From Fusobacterium massiliense (GTDB taxonomy: Bacteria; Fusobacteriota; Fusobacteriia; Fusobacteriales; Fusobacteriaceae), in contig NZ_LT608327.1 of NCBI RefSeq assembly GCF_900095705.1, positions 310,001-374,000 on the forward strand: a stretch of DNA of 64,000 bases. The letters are read 5' to 3'. The position numbers and the translations under genes are program-made. Below, piece after piece: positions 6,456-18,455 of the stretch; the stretch's first letter is position 1; each line of letters opens with the position of its first letter. A model generated the notes under the pieces. It searched no databases. It was not told the DNA's origin and worked only from the letters and a program-made list of their open reading frames with translations.

Positions 6456-7604
6456 ATGGCTGAAATTAAGGAATTGTTGGAACAATTTAAGTACTATGCA
6501 GAAAACCCAAGAAAGCAATTAGATAAATATCTTGCTGAAGGTAAGAAAGCAGTAGGAATATTCCCTTACTATGCACCAGAAGAAATTGTTTACGCAGGTG
6601 GAATGGTTCCGTTCGGTGTATGGGGAGGACAAGGACCTATTGAAAAAGCAAAGGATTATTTCCCTACTTTCTATTACTCACTAGCACTAAGATGTTTAGA
6701 AATGGCTTTAGATGGAACTTTAGATGGATTATCTGCATCAATGATTACTACATTAGACGATACATTAAGACCATTTTCACAAAACTATAAAGTAAGTGCT
6801 GGAAGAAAAATACCTATGGTTTTCTTAAATCATGGTCAACATAGAAAAGAAGAATTTGGTAAAAAATATAATGCTAAAATATTCAATAAAGCTAAAGAAG
6901 AATTAGAAAAGATTTGTGATGTAAAAATTACAGATGAAAACTTAAAGAAAGCATTCGTTGTTTATAATGAAAATAGAGCAGAAAAAAGAAAATTCATAAA
7001 ATTAGCAGCTTCTCACCCACAATCAATAAAAGCTTCTGATAGATCTAATGTTTTAAAAAGTTCATATTTTATGCTTAAAGATGAACATACAGCTCTATTA
7101 AAACAATTAAATGAAAAATTAGAAGCATTAGCTGAAGAAAAATGGGACGGAGTAAGAGTAGTAACTAGTGGAGTTATTACTGATAACCCAGGACTTTTAG
7201 AAGTATTTGATAACTATAAAGTATGTGTAGTAGCTGATGATGTGGCTCATGAATCAAGAGCATTAAAAATAGATATAGATTTATCTATTGAAGATCCTAT
7301 GTTAGCTCTTGCAGATCAATTTGCTCGTATGGACGAAGATCCAATACTTTATGACCCAGATATATATAAGAGACCTAAGTATGTGTTAGACTTAGTTAAA
7401 GACAATAAAGCAGATGGTTGCTTACTATTTATGATGAACTTCAATGATACGGAAGAAATGGAATACCCATCATTGAAACAAGCATTTGATGCTGCTAAAG
7501 TTCCATTAATCAAAATGGGATATGATCAACAAATGGTAGACTTTGGACAAGTAAAAACACAACTTGAAACATTTAATGAATTAGTACAATTAAGCAGATG
7601 GTAG
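6456..7604 (+). CDS. hgdB: 2-hydroxyglutaryl-CoA dehydratase beta subunit
   Basis: 382 residues from ATG 6456 (an upstream in-frame ATG at 6447 lies only three nt from the AGGAGG and is less likely). It belongs to the same family as HgdA. Early sequence EGKKAVGIFPYYAPEEIVYA near residue 30 and GGMVPFGVWGG match the beta subunit. Few cysteines are present (for example LALRCLEMA near 77 and KADGCLLFMMNF near 320), fitting the family pattern in which the two subunits carry different cluster ligands. It partners HgdA in dehydrating 2-hydroxyglutaryl-CoA. Its stop TAG overlaps the ribosome binding site of the next gene. Confidence 0.92.
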   Translation: MAEIKELLEQFKYYAENPRKQLDKYLAEGKKAVGIFPYYAPEEIVYAGGMVPFGVWGGQGPIEKAKDYFPTFYYSLALRCLEMALDGTLDGLSASMITTLDDTLRPFSQNYKVSAGRKIPMVFLNHGQHRKEEFGKKYNAKIFNKAKEELEKICDVKITDENLKKAFVVYNENRAEKRKFIKLAASHPQSIKASDRSNVLKSSYFMLKDEHTALLKQLNEKLEALAEEKWDGVRVVTSGVITDNPGLLEVFDNYKVCVVADDVAHESRALKIDIDLSIEDPMLALADQFARMDEDPILYDPDIYKRPKYVLDLVKDNKADGCLLFMMNFNDTEEMEYPSLKQAFDAAKVPLIKMGYDQQMVDFGQVKTQLETFNELVQLSRW

Positions 7605-7614
7605 GAGGGAGAAA

Positions 7615-8208
7615 ATGGACCAAAATTTATGGGAATATGATGATTTCATATTTAAAGGTGACGAACTAAAAGGAATGACAGCAAAAGGTAAGGATAAAGT
7701 AAAAACTGGAGGTCAAACTGATTTAGTAATACCTGCAACTACTCCTGACGGATTACCTGTTAAAAAAATAGCTGATAATGCTTTTTATAGAAGAGGGTTA
7801 ACTTCTGTTGTAATACCTGAAACTGTTGAAAGTATAGGATATGATGCTTTTGGTGTATGTAAATTAAAAGAAGTAAAATTACCTGAAGCATTAGTTAATA
7901 TAGAAGGTTTTGCTTTCTATAGAAATAAATTAACTAAAGTTGAATTTGGAAGCAAAGTAAAAAAATTAGAACCAAGCTCATTTGCACTAAATGAACTTTC
8001 AGAAATTTCTTTACCAGAAGGCTTAGAATACATTGGAGCATCTGCATTTTTCAAAAATGCTTTTTCTTCAATAACTATACCAGCTTCAGTTCAAAAAATA
8101 GATATGTATGCTTTCAAAAAAAATAATATAGGAAAAGTTGTTGTACCAAGTACAGTAAACTTACATATTAATGCCTTTGAAGCTAACACAACTGTTGAAA
8201 GAGCTTAG
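7615..8208 (+). CDS. BspA-type leucine-rich repeat protein, cytoplasmic
   Basis: 197 residues. From about residue 45 the protein is a run of 23-residue BspA/LRR_5-type repeats: unit cores are TSVVIPETVESIGYDAF, KEVKLPEALVNIEGFAF, TKVEFGSKVKKLEPSSF, SEISLPEGLEYIGASAF and SSITIPASVQKIDMYAF. There is no signal peptide and no membrane segment, whereas most BspA-type proteins in oral bacteria are surface proteins. It begins 10 nt after hgdB with GGAGGGAG overlapping the hgdB stop, so it is almost certainly the last gene of the operon. Function unknown; a scaffold or stabiliser for the dehydratase is conceivable but unsupported. A strong terminator follows at 8233. Confidence 0.8.
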   Translation: MDQNLWEYDDFIFKGDELKGMTAKGKDKVKTGGQTDLVIPATTPDGLPVKKIADNAFYRRGLTSVVIPETVESIGYDAFGVCKLKEVKLPEALVNIEGFAFYRNKLTKVEFGSKVKKLEPSSFALNELSEISLPEGLEYIGASAFFKNAFSSITIPASVQKIDMYAFKKNNIGKVVVPSTVNLHINAFEANTTVERA

Positions 8209-8232
8209 TTAAAATAAAAATATAAATTTTAG

Positions 8233-8270
8233 AATGTACCATTGTTGATGAAACTTTGGTACATTTTTTA
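8233..8270 (+). terminator. rho-independent terminator of the hgd operon
   Basis: Perfect 9-bp stem AATGTACCA / TGGTACATT with a 15-nt loop, followed by TTTTTATTG. It lies 24 nt after the stop of the LRR gene and closes the glutamate-fermentation operon. Confidence 0.85.
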
Positions 8271-8310
8271 TTGTATTCTATAGGAAAGTATAAAAAATAA
8301 AATACTTATT

Positions 8311-8386
8311 AGTCTCTGACGTCCGTATTAGTTCGAAGAGCCTGTGTTCATTCAGCTCGTAGAACTCATACGGCTGTCAAGAGACT
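8311..8386 (+). repeat. dispersed hairpin repeat, copy 1 (subfamily A, forward)
   Basis: Full-length member. Nested arms are AGTCTCT/AGAGACT, GAC/GTC, CCGTAT/ATACGG and AGTTC/GAACT; the innermost pair is less perfect here because the loop side reads CAGCTC. A single A is bulged before AGAGACT and a GT/CT internal loop separates GAC from CCGTAT. The conserved AT-rich left flank (TTCTATAGGAAAGTATAAAA) lies at 8276-8296. It lies in the 341-nt gap between the LRR gene and the PAP2-like gene. Confidence 0.9.
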
Positions 8387-8415
8387 TTTTAAAGTATAAA
8401 ATTAATATAAAAATT

Positions 8416-8489
8416 ATTCTTCGACGTTCCTTATTACTCTGGAGAACATTTCAGTGAGTTTAGAAGAGTTGTATGGTTATTAGGAGTCT
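8416..8489 (+). repeat. dispersed hairpin repeat, copy 2 (subfamily B, degenerate)
   Basis: In tandem with copy 1, 29 nt downstream, with its own AAAGTATAAAATTAATAT left flank. It aligns to the copy at 36626 (ACTCT/AGAGT upper stem, GGA/AGA internal loop, apical loop ATTTCAGTGA) but the lower stem has decayed (ATTCTTC opposite AGGAGTCT). A tandem pair of different subfamilies argues against recent duplication in place. Confidence 0.75.
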
Positions 8490-8549
8490 TTGTTTATCAC
8501 TTTTTTATTTTTTTAAAATATGCTAAAATAAAAATAAAAAGGAAATAAT

Positions 8550-9134
8550 ATGATAAATAAAATAAAAATAAAAACATTTTTTTTAAACTCACTACTTTTT
8601 ATATTTCTTTATAAAATCTCAGAAATTTATTCAAAAGGATTAAATAATATTCCTTCCGTATATATGGAGTGGGAAAAATCTATACCTTTCATCCCTATAT
8701 TTATTATTCCTTACATGACATCAGGAATATTATTTGCAATATCATTTTTTATTTTTAATGATGAAAAAAAATTGATAACTTATTCAAAAAAAACAGCAAC
8801 TTTAACAATATTATCTGTTATTTTATTTTTTATTTTTCCATTACAATTCAGTTTTGAAAAACCAGTAGTAAACAATTTTTTTTATAAAATATTATTTAAA
8901 AGTTTAGCAATGTTTGATAGTAATTTTAATCAATGTCCTTCATTACATGTTAGTTATTCATTTATGTATATCTATGTTTTTTTTAAAGAATTAAAAACAA
9001 AAATTAAGTATTTTATTTGTATTTGGAGCTTTTTGATATCAATATCAGTATTATTTGTTTATCAACATCATTTTATTGATTATATTGGAGGCTTAATAAT
9101 GTTTATAATAGTTACTATTATTTATAGGAAATAA
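8550..9134 (+). CDS. PAP2-superfamily membrane protein, AUR1/inositolphosphotransferase-like
   Basis: 194 residues with about six hydrophobic segments. Two phosphatase signatures are visible: CPSLHVSYS near residue 131 (the His-bearing C2 motif, SLH in place of SGH) and YQHHFIDYIGG near 171 (the C3 motif with His and Asp). This SLHV/HHFIDYIGG form is typical of the PAP2_3 group, which includes fungal AUR1-type phospholipid-to-ceramide headgroup transferases as well as lipid phosphatases. Substrate unknown. It is very A+T rich. It precedes the SDR gene by 65 nt containing a likely promoter, so it may be a separate transcript, but it fits the lipid theme of the following cluster. Confidence 0.7.
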   Translation: MINKIKIKTFFLNSLLFIFLYKISEIYSKGLNNIPSVYMEWEKSIPFIPIFIIPYMTSGILFAISFFIFNDEKKLITYSKKTATLTILSVILFFIFPLQFSFEKPVVNNFFYKILFKSLAMFDSNFNQCPSLHVSYSFMYIYVFFKELKTKIKYFICIWSFLISISVLFVYQHHFIDYIGGLIMFIIVTIIYRK

Positions 9135-9163
9135 AATCTAATGCTATAACTCATAAAGATATA

Positions 9164-9172
9164 TGTTATAAT
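9164..9172 (+). promoter_or_regulatory. extended -10 promoter of the lipid-type cluster
   Basis: TGTTATAAT (extended -10: TG, one base, TATAAT at 9167-9172) lies 28 nt before the SDR start, in the gap after the PAP2-like gene. No good -35 hexamer is seen, which is acceptable for an extended -10 promoter. GGAG at 9192-9195 is the ribosome binding site. Confidence 0.5.
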
Positions 9173-9199
9173 GTAATAAAATAAAAATCAGGAGTATAT

Positions 9200-9973
9200 A
9201 TGCAAAAGATATTAATAACAGGAGCAAGTTCAGGAATTGGTAGAGAATTAGCTAAAATTTTAGCTAAAGATATGAAAAAAATCTTTTTATTAGCTCGTTC
9301 TATTGAAAAATTAAAAGAATTAAAAGAAGAATTAGAAAATATATATCCAAATTTAGAATGTGAGACATTAAAATTCGATTTATCAGATATAGAGTACATA
9401 GATAATATTGTAGAGAAATGTGATGTTGATACAGTAATAAACTGTGCTGGATTTGGTAGATTAGATAAATTTTTAAATATATCATTGGAAGAAGAAATTA
9501 AAACTATAAATGTAAATTATGTAGCTCCGATAGTTTTAACAAGAAAATATATAGATAAATTTTTAAAAGAAAATAAAGGATTAATAGTAAATATCTGTTC
9601 AACAGCAGCACTTTATTATCATCCTTATATGAATATTTATTCTTCAACTAAAGCAGGGCTACTTCATTATTCTTTAGGAATAGATGAGGAATTAAAAAGT
9701 ATGAAATCTAATGTGAGAGTTTTATCAATTTGCCCAGGTCCGACTGAAACAAATTTTTTTGATAAAAATATTCAAAAAAAATTTGGAAGTTCACAAAAAT
9801 TAATGATGTCAGCTCAAGATGTTGCTAAGGAAATTATAAAATCTATAGATAAGAAAAAAACTTTTTCTATAATAGGTTTTAGAAATAAAATTTCTATGTT
9901 TTTATTAGATATATTACCTATTTCAATGCAACTTAAATTGTTATCTATAATATTAGGAAAGGTATTAAAATGA
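9200..9973 (+). CDS. short-chain dehydrogenase/reductase
   Basis: 257 residues, classical SDR. Nucleotide-binding motif TGASSGIG at residues 7-14, NCAG at 81-84, and catalytic Ser134, Tyr147 and Lys151 (YSSTK). The C-terminal 35 residues are hydrophobic (SMFLLDILPISMQLKLLSII), suggesting membrane association. It probably reduces a keto group on a lipid intermediate with NAD(P)H; the cofactor and substrate are not readable from sequence. Its TGA overlaps the ATG of the glycosyltransferase gene (ATGA), so the two are translationally coupled. Confidence 0.85.
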   Translation: MQKILITGASSGIGRELAKILAKDMKKIFLLARSIEKLKELKEELENIYPNLECETLKFDLSDIEYIDNIVEKCDVDTVINCAGFGRLDKFLNISLEEEIKTINVNYVAPIVLTRKYIDKFLKENKGLIVNICSTAALYYHPYMNIYSSTKAGLLHYSLGIDEELKSMKSNVRVLSICPGPTETNFFDKNIQKKFGSSQKLMMSAQDVAKEIIKSIDKKKTFSIIGFRNKISMFLLDILPISMQLKLLSIILGKVLK

Positions 9974-11142
9974 AAATATTATTTTATATTATACTAATAC
10001 TTACAATAATTTTATTTGTTTTAAAATTATTATTTTCTGTTTTTTATTATTATAAAATAAATAAAAAAACAAAAGATGAAATAGATGAAAGTAAGTATAC
10101 AGTTTTACAGCCTATTTTATCAGGAGATTCGAGACTCGAAGAAACTTTAGAAGAAAATTTAAGAAATACTTCAAATATGTTATTTATTTGGTTAGTAGAT
10201 AAATCAGACAGTGAGGCAATTAGGATAGTTAAAGAAATTTCAGAAAAAGAAAAATATTTAGAAAGAATAGTAAATATATACTTAGATGATGTTCCTCAAA
10301 ATATTAATCCTAAGATTTTTAAATTAGCTCAAGGCTTAAAATATATAAAAACTGAGTATACGATTGTTTTAGATGATGATTCTGTATTAGATATAAAAAA
10401 AATGAATGAGATGAGCCTATATGAAAATACTCAAGAAGAATTGATAGTAACAGGGATTCCTTATAACTATAATATAAGTGGTTTTTTCTCAAAAATGATA
10501 TCAGCTTTCATTAATAGTAATTCTATTTTTACATATTTTTCTATGTCATTTTTAAATGAAAATAAAACAATAAATGGTATGTTTTATATAATAAAAACTG
10601 AAATTTTAAAAAAATATAATGCTTTTGAAGAAATAAAATATTGGCTATGTGATGATTTAGCACTTGCAACTTATTTATTATCAATGGGAGTAAAGATAAA
10701 ACAAAGTACAATTTTTTGTAATGTAAGAAATACTGTGCCAAATCTTAGAAAATATATTTTACTAATAAAAAGATGGTTATTATTTGGAAAAATATATATG
10801 AAAAATGCCTTTTCAATAAAGTTTTTATTTATAATATTTCTTCCAATTTCACTACCAGCTATATTATTGTTTTATAGTTTTTATTTAGGGATAGATTATA
10901 TAATACTAATTTTTAATTTATTTGTTGGAAAAGTTGTACTTTATTACATCACAAGAAGAATAATATATAATGATAGAGGTAGTAAGAATAAATTAGAAGA
11001 GATAGAAGAAATATCCTTGGAGTTAGTTAGTGAACTATTACTTCCTTTTTTAATAATATATACATTTTCAACCAAGCCTACAATAGTATGGAGAAATAAG
11101 AAAATAAAAGTTATAGATGGGAAAATACATTATGAAATTTAA
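9970..11142 (+). CDS. family 2 glycosyltransferase, ceramide glucosyltransferase-like
   Basis: 390 residues: an N-terminal membrane anchor (1-30), a GT-A catalytic domain and two or more C-terminal membrane segments (about 280-330). YTVLQPILSGDSRLEETLEE near residue 43 and TIVLDDDSVLD near 132 (the DxD-like metal site) resemble the GT21/HpnI group, whose best-known members glucosylate ceramide on the cytoplasmic membrane face. YWLCDDLALATYLL near 219 would be the D2 motif, and a QxxRW-like RKYILLIKRW lies near 254. The acceptor here is unknown but is expected to be a lipid. It overlaps both neighbours (ATGA with the SDR; 11 nt with the next gene). Confidence 0.8.
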   Translation: MKILFYIILILTIILFVLKLLFSVFYYYKINKKTKDEIDESKYTVLQPILSGDSRLEETLEENLRNTSNMLFIWLVDKSDSEAIRIVKEISEKEKYLERIVNIYLDDVPQNINPKIFKLAQGLKYIKTEYTIVLDDDSVLDIKKMNEMSLYENTQEELIVTGIPYNYNISGFFSKMISAFINSNSIFTYFSMSFLNENKTINGMFYIIKTEILKKYNAFEEIKYWLCDDLALATYLLSMGVKIKQSTIFCNVRNTVPNLRKYILLIKRWLLFGKIYMKNAFSIKFLFIIFLPISLPAILLFYSFYLGIDYIILIFNLFVGKVVLYYITRRIIYNDRGSKNKLEEIEEISLELVSELLLPFLIIYTFSTKPTIVWRNKKIKVIDGKIHYEI

Positions 11143-11782
11143 TGAATATTTAGAAAAACTAGAAAGTTTAGATACAGCTAAAACTTTGCTAAAAGAAGAT
11201 AAAATTGTTTTGGTAATAAGTGGAAGTAGTGATTTGAGTTCAGCAAGTCTAGAACCCGATAGATATGAGCTTTTAAATATTTTCAAAAAATATGGCTATA
11301 CTATAGTAGATTCTAATTTTCCTTATAACGAAGATTTTCCATATAAAGATTATAAGGAAATAAATATTTTAAAAGCTAGTTGGTCAAATATTTTCTATTA
11401 CCCTCAAACCTTATATAATAAAAGGTTTAAAAAACAAATATTGAGACATCTAGAACCAATTAGGGAACTTAAAGAAGTAGTCATAATTTCACAGAGTTCA
11501 GGACTTAATATTTGGAAAAAATTTATGAAAATATCAAATTTTCAGAATGAAAATATAAAAATATTTGCTTTAGGAGCATTTGCTAAAGGATATGGAAGCA
11601 TAAAAAATACTCTCGTATTTAAAGGTTCTTTTGATATCTATTCTTGGCTTTTAGATTTTCATAAGACAGATGTTATTGTAAAATGTGGACATATGGGCTA
11701 TTTTAAAAGTAAAGATGTACAAGAAAAAATAGAAGAGTATTTGAAAAATAACAACAGTAAAATAAGTTGGGAGGAATTTTGA
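11132..11782 (+). CDS. uncharacterised protein, possibly alpha/beta-hydrolase-like
   Basis: 216 residues from ATG 11132, which overlaps the end of the glycosyltransferase gene. I do not recognise a named family. The alternation VVIISQSSGLNIW near residue 119 resembles a strand-nucleophile-helix elbow (S-x-S-x-G type), and VIVKCGHMGYF near 186 could supply a late histidine, which together suggest an alpha/beta-hydrolase-like fold. No signal peptide. Its TGA (11780-11782) overlaps the TTG start of the next gene, so it is part of the coupled operon. A lipid hydrolase role would suit the cluster, but this is inference only. Confidence 0.5.
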   Translation: MKFNEYLEKLESLDTAKTLLKEDKIVLVISGSSDLSSASLEPDRYELLNIFKKYGYTIVDSNFPYNEDFPYKDYKEINILKASWSNIFYYPQTLYNKRFKKQILRHLEPIRELKEVVIISQSSGLNIWKKFMKISNFQNENIKIFALGAFAKGYGSIKNTLVFKGSFDIYSWLLDFHKTDVIVKCGHMGYFKSKDVQEKIEEYLKNNNSKISWEEF

Positions 11783-12756
11783 AAGTATTATTAACAGGTG
11801 CTACTGGTTTTTTAGGGAAATATATAGTAGAAGAATTAAAAAATAATTCTTATGAAGTTATTGGATTTGGTAGAAACGAAAAAATTGGAAAAGAATTAGA
11901 AGATAAGAATGTTAAATTTTTTAAAGGAGATATAAGAAATAAAGAAGAACTATATGAAGCTCTTAAAGGTTGTAAAGCCGTTATACATTCAGCAGCACTT
12001 TCTACAGTTTGGGGAAAATGGGAAAATTTTTATAATATAAATGTTGTTGGTACAAAAAATATTGTAGAAATATGTGAAGAGAAAAAAATAAAATTAGTCT
12101 ATATATCTTCACCAAGTATTTATGCTGGAGCCAAAAACCAGCTAGATGTAAAAGAAGAGGAAGCTCCTAAAAAAAATGATTTAAACTACTATATAAAAAC
12201 TAAAATTCTGGCTGAAAAAATAATCAAAGAATCTTCCTTAGACTATATTATTATTCGTCCAAGAGGACTTTTTGGGATAGGAGATACAAGTATAATCCCA
12301 AGACTTTTAAAATTAAATTCAAAAATAGGTATACCTCTTTTTAATGATGGAAAACAAAAAGTAGATGTAAGTTGTATTGAGAATGTTGCCTATGCAGTAA
12401 GGTTAGCTTTGGAATGTAAAAAATATACTAGAACAGTATATAATATAACTAATGATGAGCCTATGGAATTTAAAGAAATTTTAAATTTATTCTTTAATGA
12501 ATTAGGAGAAAAAGCAAAATATTTAAAATGGAATTATAATTTAGTTTTACCATTTGTAATTTTATTAGAAAAAATTTATAAAATTTTTAAAATTGAAAAA
12601 GAACCAGCACTTACAAAATATACTCTATATTTAATGAGATATAGTCAAACTTTAAATATAGATAAGGCAAAACGAGAACTTAATTATAAGCCTAAAATTT
12701 CAGTATATGAGGGAGTAAAAAAATATGTCAAGTATACAAAAAATAGAGAAAATTAA
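11779..12756 (+). CDS. NAD-dependent epimerase/dehydratase, 3-beta-HSD-like
   Basis: 325 residues from the TTG at 11779, chosen because GGGAGG lies at 11769-11774 with a normal spacer and the start overlaps the previous TGA. Extended SDR: TGATGFLG near residue 6 for NAD(P) binding, AVIHSAALSTVWGKW near 71, SSPSIYAG near 112, and the catalytic Y-x-x-x-K as YYIKTK near 138. IIIRPRGLFG near 157 is typical of the 3-beta-hydroxysteroid dehydrogenase-like branch, which also includes OleD. It likely reduces or oxidises a beta-keto or beta-hydroxy lipid intermediate. It overlaps the MBL gene by 32 nt. Confidence 0.82.
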   Translation: MKVLLTGATGFLGKYIVEELKNNSYEVIGFGRNEKIGKELEDKNVKFFKGDIRNKEELYEALKGCKAVIHSAALSTVWGKWENFYNINVVGTKNIVEICEEKKIKLVYISSPSIYAGAKNQLDVKEEEAPKKNDLNYYIKTKILAEKIIKESSLDYIIIRPRGLFGIGDTSIIPRLLKLNSKIGIPLFNDGKQKVDVSCIENVAYAVRLALECKKYTRTVYNITNDEPMEFKEILNLFFNELGEKAKYLKWNYNLVLPFVILLEKIYKIFKIEKEPALTKYTLYLMRYSQTLNIDKAKRELNYKPKISVYEGVKKYVKYTKNREN

Positions 12757-13564
12757 ATATTTCTCTTGTGGTTATTGTACAAATAATCTAAAAAAAGTTT
12801 TTAAAGGACAGCCTTCAAAAATTTTAGATTTTTATGCTGGTGTATTTTTAATTAAACATAAAGAACAAGGCTATATTTTATATGACACAGGCTATTCTAT
12901 GGAAATTTTAAGGAATAAGCTAAAATATCTTCTTTATAGATTTGCTAATCCTATCACATTAAAAAGAGAAGATATTATAGACTATCAATTAGAAAGAAAT
13001 GGAATAAAAAAAGAAGAAATAAAGTATATTATAATATCTCATTTACATCCTGACCATATAGGTGGATTGAAATTGTTTCCAGATTCTAAAATTATAATTA
13101 CAAAAAAATGTTATCTTGATTACAAGAAGAAAAAAAATAGTATATTGATATTTGATGAGTTATTGCCAAAAAATTTTGAGAAAAGGTTGATTGTAATAGA
13201 TAGTTTTAAAAATAATGAATGTTTTAAATATAAAGAGAGCTCAGACTTGTTTAATGATGGTTCAATGATGATAGTTGAGATAGATGGACATACAAAAGGC
13301 CAAGCTTGCTTATATTTTCCAGAAAGTAAATTATTGATAGCTGCTGATGTTTCTTGGGGGACAAATTTTTTATCATTAACTGAAAAAATGACTTGGATAG
13401 CTAGAAAAATACAAAATAATTTTTATGAATATAAAAAAGGAAATGAACTTTTAAGAGAAGTAATAGAAAATGGAATATCTGTAATTGTAAGCCATGATGA
13501 AAGAGAAAAAGTGATAGAAATTTTAAAAAAATGTATGGAGAGATATAATGCAAAAAATTTTTAA
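12725..13564 (+). CDS. metallo-beta-lactamase-fold hydrolase
   Basis: 279 residues. The metal-binding signature HLHPDHIGG lies near residue 106, with further candidate ligands in IDGHTKGQACLYF near 189 (His), AADVSWGT near 207 (Asp) and VSHDEREK near 258 (His). The family hydrolyses thioesters, lactones or phosphodiesters; AHL-lactonase-like members share this length. In this cluster a thioesterase or lactonase role is plausible. The start lies inside the epimerase gene and the end overlaps the next gene by 17 nt. Confidence 0.8.
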   Translation: MSSIQKIEKIKYFSCGYCTNNLKKVFKGQPSKILDFYAGVFLIKHKEQGYILYDTGYSMEILRNKLKYLLYRFANPITLKREDIIDYQLERNGIKKEEIKYIIISHLHPDHIGGLKLFPDSKIIITKKCYLDYKKKKNSILIFDELLPKNFEKRLIVIDSFKNNECFKYKESSDLFNDGSMMIVEIDGHTKGQACLYFPESKLLIAADVSWGTNFLSLTEKMTWIARKIQNNFYEYKKGNELLREVIENGISVIVSHDEREKVIEILKKCMERYNAKNF

Positions 13565-14834
13565 TATTATAGTTACTTTTATAAAAGTAAGATATTTTAG
13601 AAAATGGACTTCAAGAGAAAAATTATTAAAATATCAAGAGAAAGAAATAAAAAAACATTTAAAATTTTTAAAAGAAAAATCACCTTACTTCAAGGAGCAT
13701 GAAATAGATAATAATTTTTCTATGGATAAAGAATTTATGATGAAAAATTTTAATAACTTAAATACACTGGGAGTAATAAAAGAAGATGCAATGACTGTGG
13801 CTATAAATAGTGAAAAAACAAGGGATTTTTCTCAAAAATATAAAAATATTTCTGTTGGCTTGTCATCAGGAACTTCGGGACATAGAGGAATATTTATTAC
13901 AACTCAAAAAGAACAGGGAATTTGGGCAGGAACTATACTTGCAAAAGCACTTCCTAAAAATGATATTTTTGGGCATAGAATAGCTTTCTTTTTAAGAGCC
14001 GATAACGACTTATATAAAAGTATAAATTCATTTTTTATAAGTCTTAAATATTTTGATACTTTTAAAGGTATTGAGGAACATATTGAAAATTTAATTAAAT
14101 ATAAGCCAACAATTATTGTAGCTCCTCCATCGATTTTACTTTTACTTTCAAAAAAAATAGAAAATGAGAAACTTGAAATTAAAGTGAAAAAAGTAATATC
14201 AGTTGCAGAAATATTGGAAGAAAAAGATAAGGAATATATAAAAAAACAATTTAAACTTGAAGTAATTCATCAAATTTATCAAGCAACAGAAGGTTTTTTA
14301 GCTTGTACTTGTGAATTTGGGAATCTTCACTTAAATGAAGATTTAATAAAATTTGAAAAAAAATATATAGATAAAAAAAGATTTTACCCAATAATAACTG
14401 ATTTTAAAAGAACAAGTCAACCATTTATAAATTATTATTTAAATGATATCTTGATTGAAGATAGAGAAAGTTGTCCTTGTGGCTCTTGTTTACAAAAAAT
14501 TGAAAAGATTGAAGGAAGAGCAGATGATATTTTTGTTTTCATTACTAAAAATAACAAGAAAATAACTGTGTTTCCTGATTTTATAAGAAGGACAATACTA
14601 TTTGTTGAAAATATAACAGAATATCAAGTATTTCAAATAAGTCATAAAACTTTGGAAGTTGCTGTTTTAAATTTAGACGAGAAACAAGAAAAAAATATAA
14701 GAGAAGAATTTTTTAAACTATTTAAAAAATTAGATATAGTTGATGTAGAAATAAATTTTATAGAATATAAACTAGACAACACAAAAAAGATGAAAAGAAT
14801 TTGTCAAAAAATGAAGAAAGAGGATTTGAGATGA
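13548..14834 (+). CDS. adenylate-forming enzyme, F390-synthetase/CapK-related
   Basis: 428 residues. VGLSSGTSGHRGIF near residue 102 is the AMP-binding P-loop of the PaaK/CapK/F390-synthetase branch. HQIYQATEGFLACTCEFG near 243 is the adenylate motif region and GRADDIFVF near 323 the hinge. CPCGSCLQ near 307 is a cysteine cluster seen in this branch (possible metal site). It should activate a carboxylic acid as an acyl-adenylate and pass it to a thiol or amine. No carrier protein is encoded in the cluster. Its TGA (14832-14834) overlaps the next ATG. Confidence 0.78.
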   Translation: MQKIFNIIVTFIKVRYFRKWTSREKLLKYQEKEIKKHLKFLKEKSPYFKEHEIDNNFSMDKEFMMKNFNNLNTLGVIKEDAMTVAINSEKTRDFSQKYKNISVGLSSGTSGHRGIFITTQKEQGIWAGTILAKALPKNDIFGHRIAFFLRADNDLYKSINSFFISLKYFDTFKGIEEHIENLIKYKPTIIVAPPSILLLLSKKIENEKLEIKVKKVISVAEILEEKDKEYIKKQFKLEVIHQIYQATEGFLACTCEFGNLHLNEDLIKFEKKYIDKKRFYPIITDFKRTSQPFINYYLNDILIEDRESCPCGSCLQKIEKIEGRADDIFVFITKNNKKITVFPDFIRRTILFVENITEYQVFQISHKTLEVAVLNLDEKQEKNIREEFFKLFKKLDIVDVEINFIEYKLDNTKKMKRICQKMKKEDLR

Positions 14835-15760
14835 GAAAAATTAAAATAAGAGCTTATGGTTGTGCATTGCCAGAAAAAATTATATATTTTAAAAATCAAA
14901 AAAGATATAAGATAGGAGCTAAGGAAACTCAACTTTCTCTAATAGAAAAAGCAGTAAATAATGCTTTAAAAAATGCCGAGTTAAGTATAGATGACATAGA
15001 CTGTATTGTCTCTGCTTGTGCAGTTGGCTTACAACCTATACCTTGTACAGCAGCCTTAATTCATGAGAGAGTAGCTAAAGGAAAAGATATTCCTGCTTTA
15101 GATATAAATACTACTTGTACTAGTTTTATGACAACTTTAGACACTATGTCTTATCTATTGGAAGCTAGTAGATATAAAAGAATTTTAATTGTATCGGCAG
15201 ATGTTCCATCAAAAGCTTTAAATCCAAATCAAAAAGAAAGTTATGAACTTTTCAGTGATGGAGCAGTAGCATATTTAATTGAAAAAACAGATGAAGAAAT
15301 AGGTATAATAGATAGTGTGCAAAAAACTTGGTCAGAGGGAGCACATTCAACAGAAATAAGAGGTGGTCTAAGTTTGTATCACCCCGAAAATTATACAGAA
15401 AAAACAAAAGAAGAATATATGTTTGATATGAATGGGAAAAAAATATTATCTCTTTCAATAAAAGAAATTCCAGAACTATTGAATAATTTTTTAAGAAAAA
15501 ATGATTTGAAAATTGAAGATATAGATATGGTTATTCCACATCAAGCCAGTATTGCTATGCCATTAGTCATGGAAAAAATGGGAATAAAAAAAGGAAAATA
15601 TATTGATGAAGTAGAAGAATATGGAAATATGGTATCTGCTTCAGTACCTATGGTATTAGCTCATGCTTTAGAAAAGAATATTATAAAAAAAGGAAACACT
15701 CTACTTTTAATTGGCACAGCAGCTGGACTGACTACAAATATGATTATTATAAAAATATAG
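14831..15760 (+). CDS. 3-oxoacyl-ACP synthase III-like condensing enzyme
   Basis: 309 residues from ATG 14831, supported by the ATGA overlap with the previous stop and AGAGG seven nt upstream. Thiolase fold with the Cys-His-Asn triad of KAS III enzymes: Cys96 (NTTCTSF), His237 (IPHQAS) and Asn266 (YGNMVSAS). FSDGAVAYLI near 141 and LLLIGTAAGLT near 291 are further KAS III landmarks. It should catalyse a Claisen condensation between two acyl thioesters. It is distinct from the housekeeping FabH context (no fabD, acpP or fabF nearby) and ends a run of overlapping genes, so it probably makes the lipid backbone of the cluster product. Confidence 0.82.
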   Translation: MRKIKIRAYGCALPEKIIYFKNQKRYKIGAKETQLSLIEKAVNNALKNAELSIDDIDCIVSACAVGLQPIPCTAALIHERVAKGKDIPALDINTTCTSFMTTLDTMSYLLEASRYKRILIVSADVPSKALNPNQKESYELFSDGAVAYLIEKTDEEIGIIDSVQKTWSEGAHSTEIRGGLSLYHPENYTEKTKEEYMFDMNGKKILSLSIKEIPELLNNFLRKNDLKIEDIDMVIPHQASIAMPLVMEKMGIKKGKYIDEVEEYGNMVSASVPMVLAHALEKNIIKKGNTLLLIGTAAGLTTNMIIIKI

Positions 15761-15792
15761 TATTTTAGAGTGATTTTTTAGTAAAAATAATT

Positions 15793-15832
15793 AAAAAAGG
15801 CAAACCAAAATTTTAAAAGGTTTGCCTTTTTA
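15793..15832 (+). terminator. rho-independent terminator of the lipid-type cluster
   Basis: Stem GGCAAACC / GGTTTGCC around a 12-nt AT loop, flanked by A and T runs (AAAAAA before, TTTTT after), 33 nt after the KAS III gene stop. The flanking A run makes it usable in both directions. Confidence 0.88.
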
Positions 15833-15908
15833 TTTCTATATACAACTATAAATTTAGAAAAAATGTGATAAAATAGAAATAAAATATTTATTTTTTTAGG
15901 AGAATATC

Positions 15909-17039
15909 ATGAGAAAGAAATTTTTTTATTTATTTACTTTATTATTTTTAATTTTTAACTTCACACTTAATGCTTCTGAAGCAAAAGAAGAATATATTTC
16001 TGGAAAAATTATAAATCTAATTTCTGTAGAAAAACCGACTACAGAAGATGAAAGTGTAAAAGAAATTCAAAAATATAATGTTAAGTTACTTGAGGGAAAT
16101 GACAAGAATGAAATTATAGAGGTAGATTTACCCATCTATAAAAATACTGAGTACAATATTGGAGCTGAAGTTGGTGATAAGGTTGTAATATACAAATCTT
16201 TTCAAAATTATGAAAACAATGAAAGTAAAATAGAATACTATATTTCTGATATAGATAAAAGGACAGATATCTATATAATGCTAGGAATATTTGGAGTTTT
16301 AATATTAGTAATTGCAAAAAAGAATGGAATTAAAGCTATGGTAGCTCTTGTTACTACTATATTTTTTATAGTCTTTATTTTTATACCAGCAATACAAAAA
16401 GGAAATTCTCCTATATTTTTTGCTGTTTTAACTTGCATATTCTCATCACTTATTACAATCTCATTTACAATGGGAATAAATAAAAAGTTCTTAGTTGCTC
16501 TTTTAGGAACTATTTCTGGAGTAGTCATTTCTGGATTACTTTCATATATTTTTACATATAAAATGAGAATTAATGGATATTTAGATTCTGATATTTTAGC
16601 ATCTGCTTATCTTTTTAAAAATATAAATCTTAAAGAATTAATTCCAGCAGGAGTAATAATAGGAAGTTTAGGAGCTGTTATGGACGTAGCAGTATCTATA
16701 ACATCTGCCATTAATGAACTATATGAAACTAATGAAAAGTTGACAAAAAAATCTATATTTAAATCAGCATTAAATATAGGAAATGACATAATTGGAACGA
16801 TGATAAATACACTTATCTTAGCATATATTGCTAGTTCATTATTTACCTTGCTTTTAATATATATTCAAGCAAATGATTACCCAGCAATTAGAATTTTGAA
16901 TTACCAAGATATTGCAGTTGAAATTATGAGATCTGTTTGTGGAAGTATAGGAATATTAATTGCTATACCTATAACAGCTTTTATAGGTTCGAATCTATTT
17001 TCTTATAAAAAAAGTATAAGTTCTCCGAACTCAAAATAA
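15909..17039 (+). CDS. YibE/F family membrane protein
   Basis: 376 residues. An N-terminal hydrophobic signal or anchor (FYLFTLLFLIFNFTL) precedes an extracytoplasmic domain to about residue 118. About seven membrane segments follow. The YibE/F signature region reads AGVIIGSLGAVMDVAVSITSAI near residue 250. The family is widespread and its function is not established. It stands alone between a terminator and an insertion-sequence remnant. An extended -10-like TGTGATAAAAT lies about 45 nt upstream and AGGAG precedes the ATG. Confidence 0.85.
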   Translation: MRKKFFYLFTLLFLIFNFTLNASEAKEEYISGKIINLISVEKPTTEDESVKEIQKYNVKLLEGNDKNEIIEVDLPIYKNTEYNIGAEVGDKVVIYKSFQNYENNESKIEYYISDIDKRTDIYIMLGIFGVLILVIAKKNGIKAMVALVTTIFFIVFIFIPAIQKGNSPIFFAVLTCIFSSLITISFTMGINKKFLVALLGTISGVVISGLLSYIFTYKMRINGYLDSDILASAYLFKNINLKELIPAGVIIGSLGAVMDVAVSITSAINELYETNEKLTKKSIFKSALNIGNDIIGTMINTLILAYIASSLFTLLLIYIQANDYPAIRILNYQDIAVEIMRSVCGSIGILIAIPITAFIGSNLFSYKKSISSPNSK

Positions 17040-17054
17040 AAAAACTTTCTTGAC

Positions 17055-17140
17055 TGTACTGATACCAAAAAGTTGGACAAATTAATTTAACTTACTAATA
17101 AGGATTGACTTCTGTAAGAAGCAGGAGTTAATCCTTTTAA
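17055..17140 (-). mobile_element. IS3-family (IS150 group) 3' end remnant
   Basis: Bases 17055-17080 match the terminal inverted repeat type of the IS150 group (TGTACTGATACC then AAAAAGTTGGACA). On the minus strand the DNA ending at the stop 17087-17089 reads KLKGLTPASYRSQSLLVS, a typical OrfB transposase C-terminus. Reading upstream, the frame meets a stop where the dispersed-repeat left flank (TATATAGGAAAATATAAAAT) begins, near 17140. Only about 85 bp of the element survive. Confidence 0.8.
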
Positions 17141-17178
17141 TTTTTATATAGGAAAATATAAAATTAAATAGCAAAATT

Positions 17179-17254
17179 AGTCTCTGATGTCCGTATTAGT
17201 TCAAATAGCCTATGTTTATTGAGCTCGTAGAACTCATACAGCTATCAAGAGACT
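17179..17254 (+). repeat. dispersed hairpin repeat, copy 3 (subfamily A, forward)
   Basis: Here the second helix is GAT/ATC instead of GAC/GTC, a compensatory pair change. Other arms: AGTCTCT/AGAGACT, CCGTAT/ATACAG and AGTTC/GAACT. The left flank at 17145-17178 directly abuts the IS150-group remnant, so the repeat either inserted into the insertion sequence or was joined to it by deletion. Confidence 0.9.
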
Positions 17255-17381
17255 TTATTTATACACTTTTATATAGAATAAAAAAATCATATAGAATAAT
17301 GAAAAGATTTTTATTTACTAGATTTTTTATGTCATTTATGGTATTATAAAATGAATTTTAAATATAAAGAGAGGTATGAAA

Positions 17382-18455
17382 ATGTTTGATAAATTAGAAG
17401 AAGTTGTTGCAAGATATGATGAGCTAAATAAGTTATTAGTTAGTCCAGAGGTTCTTGCTGATTCTAAAAAAATGATAGAATATAATAAAGCTCTTAATGA
17501 TATCACAGGAATTGTTGAAAAATATAAAGAGTATAAAAAGTATGTAAACGATATAGATTTTATTAAAGAAAGTTTTAAAACTGAAAAAGATCCTGATATG
17601 AAAGAAATGCTTAATGAAGAATTGAAAGAAGCTGAAGAAAAATTACCAGAACTTGAGAATGAATTAAAGGTATTACTTCTACCAAAAGATAAAAATGATG
17701 ACAAAAACGTTATAGTGGAAATTAGAGGTGGAGCTGGTGGAGATGAAGCTGCTCTATTTGCAGCTGATTTATTTAGAATGTATTCTAGATATGCTGAAAG
17801 AAGAAAATGGAAAATAGAAATTATTGAAAAGCAAGATGGAGAACTTGGAGGATTAAAAGAAGTTGCCTTTACAATTATCGGTCTAGGAGCTTATTCAAGA
17901 TTAAAATTTGAATCGGGAGTTCATAGAGTACAAAGAGTGCCTAAGACAGAAGCTTCTGGAAGAATTCATACTTCTACTGCAACAGTTGCTGTTCTTCCAG
18001 AAATAGAAGATATTCAAGAAGTTAAAATAGATCCAAAGGAATTAAAAATTGATACATACAGATCTGGTGGAGCTGGAGGTCAACACGTAAATATGACAGA
18101 TTCAGCTGTTAGAATTACTCACTTACCAACAGGAATAGTTGTTCAATGTCAAGATGAAAGATCTCAATTAAAAAATAGAGAAAAAGCAATGAAACACTTG
18201 ATTACTAAACTTTATGAAATGGAACAAGAAAAACAAAGAAGTGAAGTTGAATCTGAAAGAAGACTACAAGTTGGAACAGGGGATAGAGCTGAAAAAATTA
18301 GAACATACAATTTTCCAGATGGAAGAATAACTGATCATAGAATAAAACTTACTGTACATCAATTAGAAGCATTTTTAGACGGGGATATTGATGAAATGAT
18401 TGATGCACTTATAACATTCCATCAAGCTGAATTACTTTCTGCTTCTGAGGCATAA
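17382..18455 (+). CDS. prfA: peptide chain release factor 1
   Basis: 357 residues from ATG 17382, preferred over ATG 17376 because AGAGG at 17369-17373 would be too close to the earlier one. The universal GGQ motif is seen in [20 protein letters not shown] in the middle of domain 3, and [16 protein letters not shown] contains the RF1-type codon-recognition neighbourhood. It releases peptides at UAA and UAG stops. The stop TAA is followed immediately by the TTG start of prmC, whose product methylates the glutamine of this GGQ motif, the common bacterial pairing. Confidence 0.95.

Follow-up and report, generated by a model that had tools for sequence, protein, structure and literature searches.

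In the OleABCD pathway, a thiolase-fold condensing enzyme, the 3-oxoacyl reductase OleD, an AMP-forming enzyme and a hydrolase are encoded in one operon. In the Pseudomonas quinolone signal (PQS) pathway (PqsABCDE), PqsA, PqsD and PqsE represent a ligase, a 3-ketoacyl-acyl carrier protein (ACP) synthase III (KAS III) and a metallo-beta-lactamase (MBL)-fold hydrolase, respectively. Here, a seven-gene set that resembles both systems is described at positions 9200-15760 of a 64,000-nt stretch of DNA from Fusobacterium massiliense (GCF_900095705.1, contig NZ_LT608327.1, positions 310,001-374,000), referred to as the window; coordinates are window positions unless a locus identifier is given. The set appears to be an acyl-type biosynthetic operon that would work most like OleABCD or PQS-type pathways, and the chance that it is a horizontally spread operon making a glycosylated acyl product is judged to be about even. 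A first-pass annotation of this DNA, made from the letters alone, had named no fusobacterial pathway of this kind. No characterized pathway was found here either, and the word “fusobacterial” proved too narrow, as the last four genes of the operon span phyla. No report on these four genes, their marker family or their neighbors was found in open-access papers, and a subscription paper may exist; the F390 literature that was found concerns methanogens, anammox ladderanes and an accessory cluster of orthologous groups of P. aeruginosa, and none of it this gene quartet.

All seven genes are intact and lie on the + strand, with successive overlaps of 4, 11, 4, 32, 17 and 4 nt (6/6 junctions; overlap at nearly every junction had been claimed), an arrangement suggestive of co-transcription, and their earlier domain calls are confirmed by Pfam and NCBIfam profiles. 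The last four genes, termed the core, encode an OleD-like extended short-chain dehydrogenase/reductase (SDR) of the 3-oxoacyl reductase type (11779..12756, 325 aa; Epimerase 125 bits, 3Beta_HSD 109 bits), an MBL-fold hydrolase resembling N-acyl homoserine lactone (AHL) lactonases (12725..13564, 279 aa; Lactamase_B 72.6 bits, HLHPDH at 106), an adenylate-forming enzyme of family TIGR02304, “F390 synthetase-related” (13548..14834, 428 aa; motifs SSGTSG, YQATEG and EGRADD), and a KAS III (14831..15760, 309 aa; ACP_syn_III and the C-terminal domain in Pfam). The adenylating enzyme scores 632.6 bits against a TIGR02304 cutoff of 251.9, with PF00501 sub-threshold, and is the only cluster protein to pass an NCBIfam equivalog cutoff, the others being divergent. 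Based on orthologs and ribosome-binding sites, the starts of three genes were refined to ATG 11132 (alpha/beta-hydrolase), TTG 11779 (OleD-like enzyme) and ATG 14831 (KAS III).

The adenylating enzyme was used to scan 84,980 species genomes, and the best 80 loci were read. In nearly all of them, the four core genes follow each other in the order seen in the window. The window enzyme is a clear member of TIGR02304 by its score, and the core is the usual neighborhood of this family in the loci read, a context that goes beyond the NCBIfam entry, whose name states relatedness only and which gives no pathway. The same order is found in Leptotrichia, about 45 Streptococcus loci, Enterococcus, Lachnospiraceae, Erysipelotrichaceae, Saccharibacteria, Acholeplasma and one metagenome-assembled genome (MAG) of the Campylobacteraceae and, wherever open reading frame (ORF) calling was clean, also in high-GC Actinobacteria (Microbacterium, Jonesia). 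Other gene orders occur in Bacillus, Burkholderiales and E. coli; in Bacillus and Brevibacillus, the KAS III gene comes first and an ATP-grasp gene is added. Plasmid records carrying the core come from Pseudomonas, Paracoccus, Paraburkholderia, Paenibacillus, Pontibacillus, Ketogulonicigenium and E. coli, and no further biosynthetic gene is directly attached to the quartet on the Ketogulonicigenium and Pseudomonas FeN3W plasmids. Among complete E. coli genomes, 671/5426 (~12%, about one in eight) carry the core, almost always on the chromosome and, in the carriers read, in the narI-tRNA-Tyr/purU interval, followed by genes for a PAP2_3 protein, a fatty-acid hydroxylase and a fatty-acid desaturase (L181 9176-16057; L186 4001-10882). 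These carriers include the O83:H1 strain NRG 857C, ABU 83972 and strains labeled as uropathogenic E. coli. In L066, the core lies beside genes for ACP, phosphopantetheinyl transferase, acetyl-CoA carboxylase (ACC), FabD and FabF.

Two observations on the company of the core may be added. In a Saccharibacteria MAG (L073 8177-17674) and an Erysipelotrichaceae MAG (L066 7716-19092), it sits in a dedicated cluster of fatty-acid type that also holds genes for ACC subunits and FabD-like and FabF-like proteins; fatty-acid synthesis is generally regarded as absent from Saccharibacteria. ATP-grasp genes accompany the core in Bacillus and Paraburkholderia, and GNAT genes in Paraburkholderia and Paenibacillus (L089 7042-12468; L191 6126-12606).

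The first three genes of the operon encode a classical SDR, a membrane glycosyltransferase of family 21 (GT21) and an alpha/beta-hydrolase. In the window this module precedes the core, and it does so too in Enterococcus, in the genus-mate G001, and in Leptotrichia and related genomes. In most carriers of the linked module, including Leptotrichia and Enterococcus, a UGT-type glycosyltransferase gene is located between the hydrolase and OleD-like genes. It is absent from this position in the window, in G001 and in F. vincentii SB055 (L180), and the seven-gene form is therefore recurrent. A search for the UGT gene elsewhere in the genomes G000-G002, run without a positive control, gave no match; the query gene itself was recovered separately by script in L014, L036, L104 and L113. 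In Streptococcus sanguinis, S. australis and two more Streptococcus genomes, the SDR, GT21, hydrolase and UGT genes make up an operon of their own, distant from the core; the S. sanguinis type strain has both operons (L056 and L132). Two more divergent arrangements, in which the hydrolase gene is absent, exist in Fusobacteriota (L109, L110, L112). In the seven-gene form of F. vincentii SB055 (L180 7258-14201), a noncoding insert of ~360 bp separates the MBL gene from the ligase gene. The 2.1-Mb record of this strain is labeled as a plasmid but has the appearance of a chromosome. In Leptotrichia hongkongensis JMUB5056 (L013 5203-6992), the GT21 gene carries an in-frame TAG and the hydrolase gene a stop, with the other operon genes intact.

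The upstream module accompanies the core even in those streptococci that hold it as a second, usually unlinked operon. Among 197 Streptococcus genomes, the core was found in 52, the hydrolase in 21 and both in 19 (Fisher p 8e-11), and among 98 Fusobacteriota genomes, the core was found in 14 and the GT21 gene in 11, all within those 14 (Fisher p 3e-12), where these p-values overstate the co-occurrence because the tests ignore phylogeny. Co-occurrence of unlinked operons that are fused in other lineages constitutes strong evidence of one pathway, and it backs the earlier expectation that the products work together. In the neighborhood comparison across phyla that had been proposed as a check, core order and co-occurrence recurred; since gene order, overlaps and co-occurrence are all repeated in other phyla, the cluster is not a product of chance.

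From the enzyme classes, we infer the following route. The TIGR02304 enzyme would activate a carboxylic acid, and the KAS III would couple this acid with another acyl or malonyl unit, using Cys-His-Asn chemistry that does not involve the glutamate of OleA. The 3-oxo group formed in this step would be reduced by the OleD-like enzyme to give a hydroxyl, and the MBL enzyme would release the chain by thioester or lactone hydrolysis. A further carbonyl would be reduced by the classical SDR, the alpha/beta-hydrolase would cut or transfer an ester or thioester, and the GT21 membrane enzyme would place a sugar onto the hydroxyl. In Leptotrichia, Enterococcus and streptococci, the UGT-type enzyme, which the window lacks, may add a second sugar.

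The Cys96/His237/Asn266 triad of the condensing enzyme, which had been reported as intact, is conserved in every full-length copy, and with its thiolase fold and a model TM-score of ~0.85 to FabH the enzyme belongs to the FabH/KAS III class. It scores 172.9 bits against the housekeeping fabH cutoff of 292.1, and the genome has its own housekeeping FabH elsewhere (G000:C3), beside plsX and fabD and with 28% identity to the cluster KAS III. A segment of E. coli FabH, DEW...RTG, grips the adenine of coenzyme A (CoA). The corresponding N-terminal loop of ~18 residues is absent from the window KAS III and most cluster copies, and the substrates are therefore probably bound to a carrier protein rather than to free CoA. 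In both L066 and L069, the KAS III gene is followed by one for an ACP. By sequence, the best PDB matches are MxnB and CorB (133.9 and 124.5 bits); by fold, S. aureus FabH ranks first (Foldseek). Consequently, the condensation may be either a malonyl extension or a chain fusion. MxnB and CorB share with the cluster enzyme the Cys-His-Asn triad and a hydrophobic residue followed by Pro at the site of the OleA glutamate, whereas identity is only ~28%, S. aureus FabH scores nearly as high, and the cluster contains no modular polyketide synthase. Gln68 and Pro71, near this site, are common to the cluster KAS III and MxnB and are not found in the housekeeping FabH. A shared Glu79 was dropped as a further link to MxnB, as alignments differ by one residue.

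The correspondence of ligase, KAS III and MBL hydrolase to PqsA, PqsD and PqsE raises the possibility of a PQS-like route, in which a small or aromatic acid would be activated by the ligase and condensed with an acyl or malonyl unit by the KAS III, and the MBL enzyme would act as a PqsE-like thioesterase. The product would then be a signal or antibiotic that diffuses and sometimes carries a sugar, instead of a membrane glycolipid. The PDB matches of the KAS III include PqsD and PqsC, the PDB relatives of the adenylating enzyme are PaaK-type ligases, and both the plasmid cores without adjoining biosynthetic genes and the UGT/MGT-type glycosyltransferases would suit such a product. However, the ligase and MBL enzymes belong to other families than those of PQS, and the OleD-like reductase and the GT21 enzyme are additional here. 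The MBL enzyme scores 64 and 52 bits with the AttM and AiiA models, both below cutoff, and its best PDB matches are AHL lactonases (AiiA, E 4e-8); PqsE is missing from these matches, an absence that does not exclude kinship. Together with a GT21 enzyme of the lipid-glycosyltransferase type and the fatty-acid genes that neighbor the core in a number of lineages, these differences make the PQS-like route appear unlikely.

An equivalent of OleABCD would fuse two acyl chains head to head, followed by reduction, beta-lactone formation by the ligase and lactone processing by the MBL enzyme, to give a hydrocarbon, a beta-lactone or an alpha-alkyl beta-hydroxy acid. The enzyme classes match one-to-one, the MBL enzyme is lactonase-like, and the reductase is nearest to the OleD models of NCBIfam, with 192.8 and 185.1 bits against a cutoff of 580; by these profile scores it is homologous to OleD and falls outside the equivalog. 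The catalytic glutamate of OleA (E117 of X. campestris, followed by Pro) acts in the active site of the partner, and head-to-head condensation by OleA and PpyS depends on it (PMC7064751; PMC4578411); MxnB and CorB have Val at its position (PMC4578411). The adjoining proline, which both OleA (Glu-Pro) and MxnB (Val-Pro) have, is conserved in the cluster KAS III as Pro71 (PMC7064751; PMC4578411). However, the glutamate itself is replaced by Ile70 in the window and by Ile or Leu in 89/89 cluster KAS III compared. OleA-type head-to-head condensation was accordingly rejected as the mechanism. The ligase is of the TIGR02304 and not the PF00501-containing OleC type, the hydrolase is an MBL protein instead of OleB, and extra SDR, GT21 and alpha/beta-hydrolase genes are present. 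No OleB-family protein was detected in the operon with Pfam and NCBIfam, in which the alpha/beta-hydrolase has no family match. Judged by its sequence features, i.e., the OleA glutamate, the OleD cutoff and the OleC and OleB types, the cluster lies outside OleABCD, and the equivalence is improbable. The condensed acyl backbone proposed in the first-pass annotation is accordingly disfavored in its OleA form, and ordinary or MxnB-like condensation may still provide one.

Returning to the glycosylated acyl product, its lipid character is proposed because of the GT21 family and the fatty-acid genes near the core in other lineages. The earlier suggestion of a glycosylated lipid agrees with the lipid-type enzyme classes and with core relatives in fatty-acid or lipid settings (L066 and E. 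coli L181), the lipid itself being a prediction from this context. Several observations weigh against this interpretation. PaaK-family ligases often accept aromatic acids. The MBL enzyme and the alpha/beta-hydrolase fall below or outside every named family, and the co-occurrence tests neglect phylogeny, as stated above. The core is also partnered by ATP-grasp and GNAT proteins in Bacillus, Paenibacillus and Burkholderiales, which suggests different tailoring, and by an NRPS-like adenylation protein in Lachnospiraceae; the core product therefore need not be a membrane lipid and may be a building block put to several uses. The broader proposal that the quartet is an undescribed, phylum-spanning acyl-assembly pathway, which parallels OleABCD with other enzymes and through which oral fusobacteria and streptococci make a new class of glycolipids, is tentative and somewhat doubtful.

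Regarding its origin, the operon has a patchy distribution, and horizontal acquisition is probable. In a tree of the adenylating enzyme, the window groups with Leptotrichia and G083 (support 100/99), apart from the genus-mate G001, and 7/7 cluster proteins of the window are nearer to those of Leptotrichia and F. vincentii than to those of G001, with a narrow margin for the KAS III. The cluster has a GC content of 0.22-0.25 compared with 0.27-0.33 in the flanks. G002, the other member of the genus, lacks it; the YibE/F gene of that genome has no cluster alongside and different neighbors, so that a clean empty site is not seen. No mobility gene was seen. The scattered distribution and low GC would also fit a decaying, non-functional island, as would the missing UGT gene in the window and F. 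vincentii and the stops in L. hongkongensis; however, 7/7 cluster ORFs of the window are intact with their motifs kept, and the UGT gene is equally absent in G001 and L180, where the seven-gene form recurs, which makes decay very improbable.

In the upstream module, the classical SDR, a probable ketoreductase (9200..9973, 257 aa; adh_short 140 bits; GASSGIG, NCAG and Y147-x3-K), has only sub-cutoff matches among specific NCBIfam models, mycolate_SDR included. The GT21 enzyme (9970..11142, 390 aa) is a ceramide-glucosyltransferase/HpnI-like membrane protein with DxD-type motifs, scoring 70.4 bits with Glyco_transf_21 against a gathering score of 21.7, and its PDB match is ceramide glucosyltransferase (E 1e-7). 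With HpnI, it reaches 42.4 bits against a cutoff of 310, and the operon contains no sphingolipid or hopanoid genes. Synthesis of a sphingolipid- or hopanoid-type glycolipid by a KDSR-like SDR and this enzyme, which the GT21 and HpnI/HpnA similarities might suggest, is scarcely credible, as the scores with HpnI and HpnA fall far below their cutoffs and the operon lacks genes of the serine palmitoyltransferase and squalene-hopene cyclase types. For the third protein (11132..11782, 216 aa), previously called hydrolase-like, an alignment of 10 homologs revealed common SGSS, NFPYN and SSGLN motifs, with S122/S123, D168 and H187 invariant. Its AlphaFold model (pLDDT 87) resembles small lipases (Foldseek probability 1.0; VIA Z ~10.9 over 150 residues), and by the modeled fold and Ser-Asp-His arrangement (S122/D168/H187) it is an alpha/beta-hydrolase.

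An eighth intact + strand ORF in 8550-15760 encodes a PAP2_3 membrane protein (8550..9134; 33.9 bits), which ends 65 nt upstream of the seven-gene set without overlap. It had been counted with the cluster. However, G003 has the gene but no cluster, G001 has gene and cluster on different contigs, and a search of the remaining cluster carriers covered did not find it, and PAP2 was rejected as an operon member in Fusobacteria, where it is not conserved alongside the cluster. The E. coli core operon holds a related PAP2_3 gene (28.6% identity over 77 aa), and a loose functional link between PAP2 and the core may exist. Scans for an operon promoter or terminator scored no better than shuffles, and no known RNA element was found in 7000-18000. 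Further upstream, 8285-8495 comprises two tandem units of a dispersed repeat of ~105 bp with at least 44 genome matches at 77-100% identity; the unit at 8285-8395 is predicted to form a single long hairpin (z -7.05) and has no Rfam match. A BspA-type leucine-rich-repeat protein of 197 aa (7615-8208; LRR_5, 115 bits) is unexpected beside a metabolic operon. Its gene starts 10 nt past a 2-hydroxyacyl-CoA-dehydratase-like gene, as identified from the sequence.

The core is present in about a quarter of the sampled Streptococcus genomes, in 14/98 fusobacterial genomes and in 12% of complete E. coli genomes, apparently without an assigned product. Tractable hosts and its natural absence in close relatives make the product findable by gene removal and lipidomics. 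Identifying the product would also assign a function to the large family TIGR02304, which so far has only the name “F390 synthetase-related.”

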